From the NCBI GenBank assembly GCA_021792365.1, contig JAJYUT010000008.1:1-64000 (forward strand): 64,000 nt of DNA, read 5' to 3'. The stretch comes from Pseudomonadota bacterium. GTDB taxonomy: Bacteria; Pseudomonadota; Alphaproteobacteria; Dongiales; Dongiaceae. A model generated the notes under the pieces. The model was not told the origin of the DNA. It ran no database searches and saw nothing but the letters and a program-made list of their open reading frames with translations. Within the stretch, counting starts at the first letter, position 1. Each line of letters begins with the position of its first letter. The position numbers were made by a program, and so were the translations under genes. Positions 39,238 to 43,023 of the stretch are shown one piece after another.

Positions 39238-39603
39238 TCAATAGAGCCTTCCGCCATTGGACACGGAGAGGCTGGGCTGGATCAGCACGACCTCCCCGTT
39301 CTCATCGGGGAAGCCGAGCACCAGGACTTCGGACATGAATTTTCCGATCTGCTTCTTCGGGAAGTTCACCACCGCCGCGACCTGCCGGCCGACCAGCTCC
39401 TCCAGCGCGTAGCGCTTGGTGATCTGCGCGGACGAGCGCCGCGTCCCGATCGCGGGGCCGAAATCCACCGTCAGCTTGTAGGCCGGCCGCCGCGCCTCGG
39501 GGAACGGCTCCGCGGCAATGATGGTGCCGACGCGAATGTCGACCTTGCGGAAGTCGTCATGGGTGATGTCCGCGGTAAGCGGCTCCGGTTGTCCCTCAGG
39601 CAT
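39238..39603 (-). CDS. csaA: CsaA-like tRNA-binding-domain protein
   Basis: 121 residues. It is a single OB-fold tRNA-binding (EMAP-II-like) domain: FRKVDIRVGTIIAAEPFPEA, YKLTVDFGPAIGTRRSSAQI, VVNFPKKQIGKFMSEVLVLG and a VLIQPSLSVSNGGRLY tail. CsaA is a dimeric chaperone-like protein that binds tRNA and, in Bacillus, preproteins. It shares a minus-strand unit with the M24 gene. The upstream 69 bp include the phasin terminator, so the promoter must lie close to the start. Confidence 0.9.
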   Translation of the reverse strand: MPEGQPEPLTADITHDDFRKVDIRVGTIIAAEPFPEARRPAYKLTVDFGPAIGTRRSSAQITKRYALEELVGRQVAAVVNFPKKQIGKFMSEVLVLGFPDENGEVVLIQPSLSVSNGGRLY

Positions 39604-40426: not shown

Positions 40427-41092
40427 TTAGGCCCTGCCGCGCCGCGCCATACCGAGCCAGCGGTCCACCTGACCCAGCCGCTTGTCGAGCTCCGCCATGG
40501 TCTTGGAGAGATCGGCCGTATCGTCCTTCAGCCAAACCCGGAGCGCCCAGGCATAGATCGCCCCAAGGCCCTCGATACGGAAGGCGCCCCTGAACCCGGA
40601 GGCGGAAAGGCCACCCGCCTCCAGCATGTTGGCAAGAGAGCGGTGGAGTTGGAACATGAGGCAGCCCGCCTCCTGCGGCGTCCGCGGCAGTTCCCAGGAC
40701 AGGGCGGCATAGGCCTCCTTGTGCTCATTAAGAATATCGAGCCGGCGCATGATGAGGTCGAAGAGCCTGTCCTTCACCGAGCCGTCCAGCGGATCCTCTT
40801 CCAGGCTGGCGAACAGCCGGGAATCGATGTCACGGCTGATCCCTGTCAGGATTGCGGCCTTGGAGGGATAGGCGTCGTAGGCGGCGGCGAGGCTGAGCCC
40901 GGCATCCTTGGCGATCTCGGCATAGGACAGATCGCGCCACCCGCCGGCTGCGGCCATGCGCAGCAGCGCCACACGCAGGGCGGCCTTGGGATCGCCGGCA
41001 GCGCCCTGGGGCTGTGGGCGAGATTTGGATCCGGGCTTGGACCCGGATTTTGGGCGTGCCGACTTTGCTGTCTTGCGCGCGGACTTGGCCAT
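40427..41092 (-). CDS. TetR/AcrR-family transcriptional regulator
   Basis: 221 residues from ATG 41092 (MAKSARKTAKSAR), with GGAG six bases upstream; ATG 41104 has its AGGA too close. A Lys/Ser/Pro-rich basic N-terminal tail of about 35 residues, unusual for the family, precedes the helix-turn-helix (LSYAEIAKDAGLSLAAAYDA, then YPSKAAILTGISRDID). The C-terminal ligand domain is helical and ends in a basic segment. It lies upstream of the phasin on the same strand but is separated by the phasin promoter. The target is unknown. Confidence 0.88.
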   Translation of the reverse strand: MAKSARKTAKSARPKSGSKPGSKSRPQPQGAAGDPKAALRVALLRMAAAGGWRDLSYAEIAKDAGLSLAAAYDAYPSKAAILTGISRDIDSRLFASLEEDPLDGSVKDRLFDLIMRRLDILNEHKEAYAALSWELPRTPQEAGCLMFQLHRSLANMLEAGGLSASGFRGAFRIEGLGAIYAWALRVWLKDDTADLSKTMAELDKRLGQVDRWLGMARRGRA

Positions 41093-41173
41093 GACTTGCT
41101 CCATTCCTGCGCTGAATCTTAACGCTACTCTGGCGCGGGATGGAGGCGAGAGCAAGACTTTGAGAAGGCGGGC

Positions 41174-42511
41174 CTACTTGACGGAGATCACCTGGCCGCC
41201 GGTGATCCGCCGCAGGTCCGCCGGGGTGAGGCGGAAGACCGCGTTAGGTGACCCGGCCGCCGCCCAGATCTCCTCATATCGGTCGAGGTCGGCGTCGATG
41301 AAGACGCGCACCGGACCGGTATGGCCGACCGGGGCGACCCCGCCGATCGCGAAGCCCGTCGCGGCGCGCACGAAATCGGCATCGGCGCGACCGACCTTGC
41401 CGCCCAGCGCCGCTTCCAGTTTCTTCTCGTCCACCCGGTTGGTCCCGCTCGCGATCACGAGGATCGGCTGGTTGGCGGCCTTGGCGCGGAAGACCACCGA
41501 CTTGGCGATCTGCGCGACGGTGCAGCCGATCGCCGCCGCCGCATCGGCGGAGGTGCGGGTGGAGGCGTCGAATTCCCTGATCTCCGCCTCAAGGCCGTGG
41601 CGGGCAAGCGCCTCGCGCACGCGGGCTACGCTGCCCTTCGGCTCCGGGCCATTGGCCATCGCTTTGCCTTCCGCGATCTCGCGCCCGCGGCGGGTCGCGG
41701 CGGCGATGGCCTTGGTCATCAGGGGCTGCAATCCGTCGGGCGCCATCAGGACCGCCAGGGCTTCGATGGTCGTGCCTTTCGGGCTCATCACGGCCTCGCG
41801 CAGCCTGGTGGCCGAATCGGAGGACCGATGCGCCAACTCGCCGGAGCCGGTCACCGTCTCGCGCGCCAATTGCATGGCGAGATCGGCGGGCAGACCCGCC
41901 GCGCGGCCGGCTTCCGCCAGGCACTCGATCAGCAGGAACACATAGGCCGGTCCGCCGCCGGAAAGCGCCGTGACGGCGTTGATCTGGTCCTCCTCGTCGA
42001 TCCAGCCGACCTTGCCGACGGCGGAGAGAAGCTGCCCGCACAGATCGAGCGTGGCAACCGGGATATTCGGATCCCGGAGGATGACGCTCATGCCGCGGCT
42101 CACCGCGGCCGGCGTGTTGGGCATGGAGCGGACCACGGCCGCATCGCCGCCCAGCTTGTCCTTCAAATAGGCGACGGTCTTGCCGGCGGCGATCGACAGG
42201 AACACCGTGCCCGGCCCCGTGGCTTTCTGGGCGAATCGGCGATAGGCGGGCAGCGCCTCGTCCATGAATTGCGGCTTGATCGCCAGGAGAACGATGGCGG
42301 GCTGCAACCCTGCGGGCAATCCGTCGATCGCGCTCACGATGGTGACGCCGCGAGCCTGGACATCGTCCAGGTCCCGCGGCGCCGGATCCACCACGAACAC
42401 GTCCTTGCCGGCGATGCCGCGGCCGAGCCAGCCACGCAGCAACGCCCCGCCCATCTTGCCGCAGCCCACCAGCAAAAGCGGGCCGGGCAAGACGATAGTC
42501 TGGTCACTCAT
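41174..42511 (-). CDS. proC: Pyrroline-5-carboxylate reductase fused to a YbaK/ProX-type aminoacyl-tRNA deacylase domain
   Basis: 445 residues in one open frame. Residues 10-280 are a complete P5C reductase: Rossmann start LLLVGCGKMGGALLRGWL, LLAIKPQF, RSMPNTPAAVSRG, LSGGGPAYVFLLIE and VMSPKGTTIEAL. This domain makes proline from 1-pyrroline-5-carboxylate. A short linker (residues 281-292) leads to residues 293-445, a YbaK/prolyl-tRNA deacylase domain with the catalytic Lys at 337 (IAKSVVFRA), ASGTNRVDEKKL and GGVAPVGH. Free-standing members clear Cys- or Ala-tRNA(Pro). An ATG at 41659 (M285) has GGAAGG seven bases upstream, so the second domain may also be made alone. It follows ybjN by 8 bp. 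Confidence 0.9.
   Translation of the reverse strand: MSDQTIVLPGPLLLVGCGKMGGALLRGWLGRGIAGKDVFVVDPAPRDLDDVQARGVTIVSAIDGLPAGLQPAIVLLAIKPQFMDEALPAYRRFAQKATGPGTVFLSIAAGKTVAYLKDKLGGDAAVVRSMPNTPAAVSRGMSVILRDPNIPVATLDLCGQLLSAVGKVGWIDEEDQINAVTALSGGGPAYVFLLIECLAEAGRAAGLPADLAMQLARETVTGSGELAHRSSDSATRLREAVMSPKGTTIEALAVLMAPDGLQPLMTKAIAAATRRGREIAEGKAMANGPEPKGSVARVREALARHGLEAEIREFDASTRTSADAAAAIGCTVAQIAKSVVFRAKAANQPILVIASGTNRVDEKKLEAALGGKVGRADADFVRAATGFAIGGVAPVGHTGPVRVFIDADLDRYEEIWAAAGSPNAVFRLTPADLRRITGGQVISVK
41667..41672 (-). promoter_or_regulatory. Internal ribosome binding site at the proC/ybaK junction
   Basis: On the minus strand GGAAGG lies seven bases before an in-frame ATG (41659-41657, M285 of the fusion). 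It is placed exactly in the linker between the two domains. Initiation here would yield a 161-residue stand-alone YbaK-type protein. This is a sequence-based inference. Confidence 0.5.
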
Positions 42512-42519
42512 CTAAGGGT

Positions 42520-43023
42520 TCAGGCCTCTCCGACCGTCTCCAGCATGGCGGCTTCCATCGCCTCATGGGGCTTCTTACCGCCCCACAGCGCGAATTGGAA
42601 GGCAGGGTAGAAACGCTCGCATTCGCCGATCGCTGTTTCGAGCAGATCCTCAAGCTGCTCGGCGACGATCCCATTGGTGCCGCGTAAGAGGACGGTGTGG
42701 CGGTACATCGGCGACATCTCCTCGGAGGAGAGATCGAAATGGCCGAGCCAAAGCCGTTCGTTGATCATGGCCAGCAATTCGGAAACCACCGGGCGCTTTC
42801 CGGTGGGAATCTTCATGTCGAACAAGCACGAGAAATACAGCGCCCCCAAATCCTCCTGCCAAACAAAGAACATACGGTATTCGCACCACTGACCACGGAA
42901 CTCGACCACCATCTCCTCGTCAGCCGAACGCTCGTGCCGCCATTCGTTGACGGTCACCAGCTCTTCCAGCATGTCGATGGGATTGTGACGGGTTTGGGTC
43001 GACTCAACTCGGAGCAATGCCAT
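42520..43023 (-). CDS. YbjN domain-containing protein
   Basis: 167 residues. It matches the YbjN family, a type III secretion chaperone-like fold: NEWRHERSADEEMVVEFRGQ, WCEYRMFFVWQEDLGALYFS, LLAMINERLWLGHFDLSSEE and MYRHTVLLRG. It is cytoplasmic. Family members affect motility and stress responses in enterobacteria, but the molecular role is unknown. It is probably co-transcribed with the proC fusion (8-bp gap). Its upstream region has a cluster of GANTC sites, one of which (43001-43005) is in codons 6-8. Confidence 0.88.
   Translation of the reverse strand: MALLRVESTQTRHNPIDMLEELVTVNEWRHERSADEEMVVEFRGQWCEYRMFFVWQEDLGALYFSCLFDMKIPTGKRPVVSELLAMINERLWLGHFDLSSEEMSPMYRHTVLLRGTNGIVAEQLEDLLETAIGECERFYPAFQFALWGGKKPHEAMEAAMLETVGEA

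Follow-up and report, generated by a model that had tools for sequence, protein, structure and literature searches.

We asked whether a single protein in this organism unites P5C reductase (ProC) with an aminoacyl-tRNA editing domain, as one open reading frame (ORF) of the window (the whole 64,000-nucleotide stretch of DNA analysed here) implies, and whether such a protein is a conserved arrangement or an event of one lineage. The features of the locus are as follows.

42520 to 43023, minus strand: YbjN-family gene, a conserved operon neighbour, 8 nt upstream of proC (PF10722)
41174 to 42511, minus strand: fused ORF of 445 amino acids, ProC plus ProXp-x-like editing domain, without internal stop
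41672 to 42511, minus strand: ProC part, residues 1-280, with NAD(P)-binding and P5CR dimerisation domains (TIGR00112, PF14748)
41667 to 41672, minus strand: GGAAGG, Shine-Dalgarno-like, 7 nt upstream of ATG 41659
41633 to 41671, minus strand: linker, residues 281-293, EGKAMANGPEPKG; site of the lost stop and low-confidence coil in the model
41657 to 41665, minus strand: AAA GCG ATG (Lys283-Ala284-Met285), at the place of the ancestral TGA(TG) stop/start overlap of Dongia deserti (alignment with D. deserti)
41657 to 41659, minus strand: ATG of Met285, at which the separate editing gene began ancestrally; possible internal start of a 161-residue product
41174 to 41632, minus strand: aminoacyl-tRNA editing domain of ProXp-x-like type, residues 294-445; it carries Lys337 and a GGVAP (GXXXP) loop (PF04073, 2CX5, alignment)
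40427 to 41155, minus strand: TetR_N/COQ9-like gene, a conserved downstream neighbour (profile matches)

One ORF holds ProC and an editing domain

In profile searches, the N-terminal part matched ProC (TIGR00112) at residues 13-279, with 221.8 bits against a curated cut-off of 196.75, and the P5CR dimerisation domain (PF14748) at residues 174-278 (106.8 bits), while the C-terminal part matched the PF04073 editing domain at residues 317-435 (101.9 bits). Matches to both ProC and an editing domain within an ORF of 445 codons are far above chance level. The original prediction of one frame uniting P5C reductase with an editing domain was borne out, as the frame runs through 445 amino acids with no stop and both profiles match; the ORF from 42511 to 41174 on the minus strand, holding a complete ProC and a complete editing domain, is confirmed as real. 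Its ProC part is a full-length likeness of known ProC proteins, from which it differs by a C-terminal extension of 165 residues, whereas ProC of the relatives ends in RELA-x or REIAEG-x. In the source genome (5.43 Mb in 30 contigs, rated 100% complete), the fused ORF was the sole ProC match, and the only domain of the ProXp-x-like editing type also sits in it.

The editing domain is closest to ProXp-x

We then placed the C-terminal part by its match scores to solved structures, without a tree. The best match was 2CX5 (Thermus TTHA1699), at 120 bits over the full length, followed by APE2540 (49.8 bits), the H. influenzae/E. coli YbaK (HI1434; 37-39 bits) and the INS domain of prolyl-tRNA synthetase (ProRS; 20 bits). 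In addition, the domain did not reach the threshold of the YbaK profile TIGR00011 (61.4 bits, cut-off 153.25). Judged from these scores, the domain is ProXp-x-like: it resembles 2CX5 more than it does YbaK, APE2540 or INS. The earlier label, YbaK/prolyl-tRNA deacylase, was right as to the editing superfamily (PF04073), which the domain has in common with the YbaK Cys-tRNA(Pro) deacylase, but it did not hold for YbaK proper. Ten full proC/editing pairs were aligned by reading through the junction, with the stop treated as a residue for alignment purposes only; Lys337 was invariant among these ten relatives, and the GXXXP loop is present as GGVAP, so that the window keeps both traits of ProXp-x. 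According to a 2024 review, 2CX5 is an example of ProXp-x, the substrate of which is 2-aminobutyryl-tRNA and, to a lesser degree, Ala-tRNA(Pro) (PMC11295145). The same review describes the known trans-editing proteins of the INS superfamily as single-domain, a trait that is not strictly defining, whereas the domain of the window follows ProC, which makes the fusion a rare domain pairing (PMC11295145). We also compared the Plasmodium-type ProXp-ala-ProRS fusion, likewise an INS-superfamily domain joined to a proline-related enzyme, but with prolyl-tRNA synthetase rather than a biosynthetic reductase as the partner (PMC11295145).

The ProRS of the source genome (L113/L114) has no INS domain, TIGR00409 covering positions 1-222 and 400-561 only. 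Apart from the fused ORF, the genome has one PF04073 protein only, a free-standing one (L002 1378-1923, G000:C9:978255), which is probably ProXp-ala-like. A ProRS without INS together with a separate ProXp-ala-like gene suggests that editing in this organism is left to free-standing enzymes.

Two variants were seen among the homologues. The editing protein of another genome (G422, L122 475-1758) has a five-residue gap at its GXXXP loop (TGF-----PPCAH) and may be inactive or have a different substrate. Anaerolineae/Chloroflexi MAGs (L037-L040, L043, L048 and others) also carry close homologues of this domain, at 60-64%, and none of these homologues adjoins proC within the DNA examined around these loci.

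ProC and the editing gene are separate in the relatives

The best-matching named relatives were a MAG labelled Rhodospirillum sp. PB1.008 (L033, with the junction of G003) and Dongia deserti (L034, with the junction of G002), which marks the organism as Dongia-like. We compared 40 distinct junctions between proC and the editing gene, and in 39 of them a TGA, TAG or TAA ends proC, the window being the sole fusion. A stop parts the two genes in each of the three further genus members, and in 13 of the 39 unfused junctions the second gene lies in the same frame behind it. No second uninterrupted two-domain match was present among the matches listed from about 675 genomes of the order, the class, a second order and the phylum; this search was judged from the best-scoring matches, near the top of which any fusion would be expected. 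A conserved domain pair, for which the original prediction had advised a search, was thus not recovered. The stops in all relatives count against a conserved fusion, but not against the sequence of this genome itself. That such a fusion is undescribed, as first supposed, agrees with the literature searched, in which no paper treating P5C reductase, YbaK and fusion together was found.

Two apparent extra fusions with the same open-frame length, in G435 and G415, were rejected because a TGA lies between the genes. Note that in G415 (L118 1519-1695) the match to the editing gene was confined to a C-terminal piece, about 174 nt past the proC stop; this gene is probably a degraded copy.

Compared across these genomes, the fusion looks like an in-frame event of one lineage in an old operon pair, and not like a new kind of system. 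A stop loss in one species is by itself an ordinary event.

How the stop was lost

The junction of D. deserti, the nearest relative, reads GAAGG-AAAGTGATGG, in which the TGA stop of proC and the ATG start of the next gene share a base (TGATG). It is of the type known from operon gene pairs that overlap and are translationally coupled (PMC10666635). The junction of the window, aligned to that of D. deserti, reads GAAGGCAAAGCGATGG and differs by one inserted base and one T-to-C substitution at the old stop/start overlap. The one inserted base joins the frames and removes the stop, with the T-to-C change coming before or after. Since the window junction aligns with the TGATG overlap of D. deserti, Met285 is the old start codon; among the other members of the genus, this is the aligned position at which the unfused editing gene begins. 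Compared with coupled overlapping pairs, the window has lost the stop and would give a single polypeptide instead of coupling.

We consider it probable that an old operon pair, proC and a ProXp-x-type deacylase gene, became one frame in a single Dongia-like lineage, and that a bifunctional protein of 445 residues is the result. Its ProC part would reduce pyrroline-5-carboxylate to proline, and the flexibly tethered editing domain would hydrolyse mischarged tRNA, namely 2-aminobutyryl-tRNA and some Ala-tRNA(Pro).

The fusion is known from one assembly of one species, and all relatives are unfused, as would be expected if a sequencing or assembly error had joined two genes that the organism keeps apart like its relatives. 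Small changes would indeed suffice to part them: the loss of any one base between residues 280 and 293 makes ProC end at a TAG behind residue 294, and of the few single substitutions that would put a stop into the linker, one in the Lys283 codon places it near the ancestral site. However, it would take both an indel and a substitution to restore a stop of the D. deserti type, codons are conserved on both sides of the junction, and the complete genome in 30 contigs bears no sign of poor quality. We therefore regard an error as improbable.

Both halves appear to be maintained

In comparison with D. deserti, proC had a dN/dS of 0.13 and the editing part one of 0.12; in comparison with the other two members of the genus, the values were 0.17 and 0.15, and 0.23 and 0.16, respectively. 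These values mostly average over time that may predate the fusion. These low ratios suggest that both halves are maintained by purifying selection, though much of the period covered may precede the fusion. In the AlphaFold model, a helix ends at residue 280, a low-confidence coil spans residues 281-293, and a confident editing domain begins at residue 294; the model was built from a ten-sequence alignment, its ProC dimerisation part is poor, and its mean pLDDT and pTM are 72.6 and 0.44, respectively. The simplest reading of the model is a flexible linker joining two independent domains, and the ProC and editing domains most likely act independently. The gain from the fusion, if any, would be equal expression of both activities; otherwise the fusion would be neutral.

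A second product may start at Met285

The original prediction placed GGAAGG seven bases ahead of ATG 41659 in the linker, and these coordinates are right, as is the product length of 161 residues. As an internal start, the position gains from homology with the start codons of the genus members, but the Shine-Dalgarno match is no better than chance: the duplex energy of GGAAGG with the 16S tail, for which a typical sequence was used, was -6.9 kcal/mol and was equalled or beaten at 12% of the codon positions of the same ORF. It is therefore homology, and not the site alone, that makes a second product plausible. Two products, the 445-residue fusion and the 161-residue editing protein, are possible on this reading of the sequence, and the shorter one may or may not be made alongside the longer.

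A stronger version, in which the cell makes its editing enzyme mainly from Met285 and the fusion is a harmless extension of ProC, would fit the kept ancestral start with GGAAGG upstream. However, besides the ordinary Shine-Dalgarno energy, Met285 now lies inside a translated frame, and termination-reinitiation coupling is therefore gone. We hold this version to be doubtful, yet a real possibility, and it is compatible with the bifunctional protein.

The gene pair and a possible functional coupling

The gene order UbiK-YbjN-proC-editing-COQ9/TetR, with lgt divergent, is common to Dongiaceae and in large part to Azospirillum, and proC and a ProXp-x-like gene are adjacent in Dongiaceae, Azospirillum and other alphaproteobacterial orders. 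Judged from gene neighbourhood, which is all that is conserved, this pairing is a more general observation than the fusion. The side-by-side pattern points to a possible connection of proline supply with proofreading, and the functional link of proline synthesis to tRNA editing that was first proposed would be an inference from it.

The fusion might accordingly be adaptive, coupling proline supply or ProC oligomers to the clearing of mischarged tRNA; the adjoining genes of many Alphaproteobacteria and the ProRS without INS speak for this. On the other hand, we found the fusion in a single species, the separate ProXp-ala-like gene is present in the genome as well, and 67 of 80 editing-domain loci from the genome scan do not adjoin proC. 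Adaptation of this kind seems very unlikely to us, and we give equally little credence to a genuinely bifunctional enzyme, ProC-ProXp-x, that would tie proline synthesis to the clearing of mischarged tRNA both physically and functionally. If true, such a coupled enzyme would reveal why many Alphaproteobacteria keep both genes together.

Two further observations concern the neighbouring genes. A gene for a CsaA-type tRNA-binding protein lies nearby on the same strand (39238-39603). The upstream YbjN-family gene is 97-98% identical to its counterparts in D. deserti and G003 (L007, L008, L034), a far stronger conservation than the 85-89% of proC.
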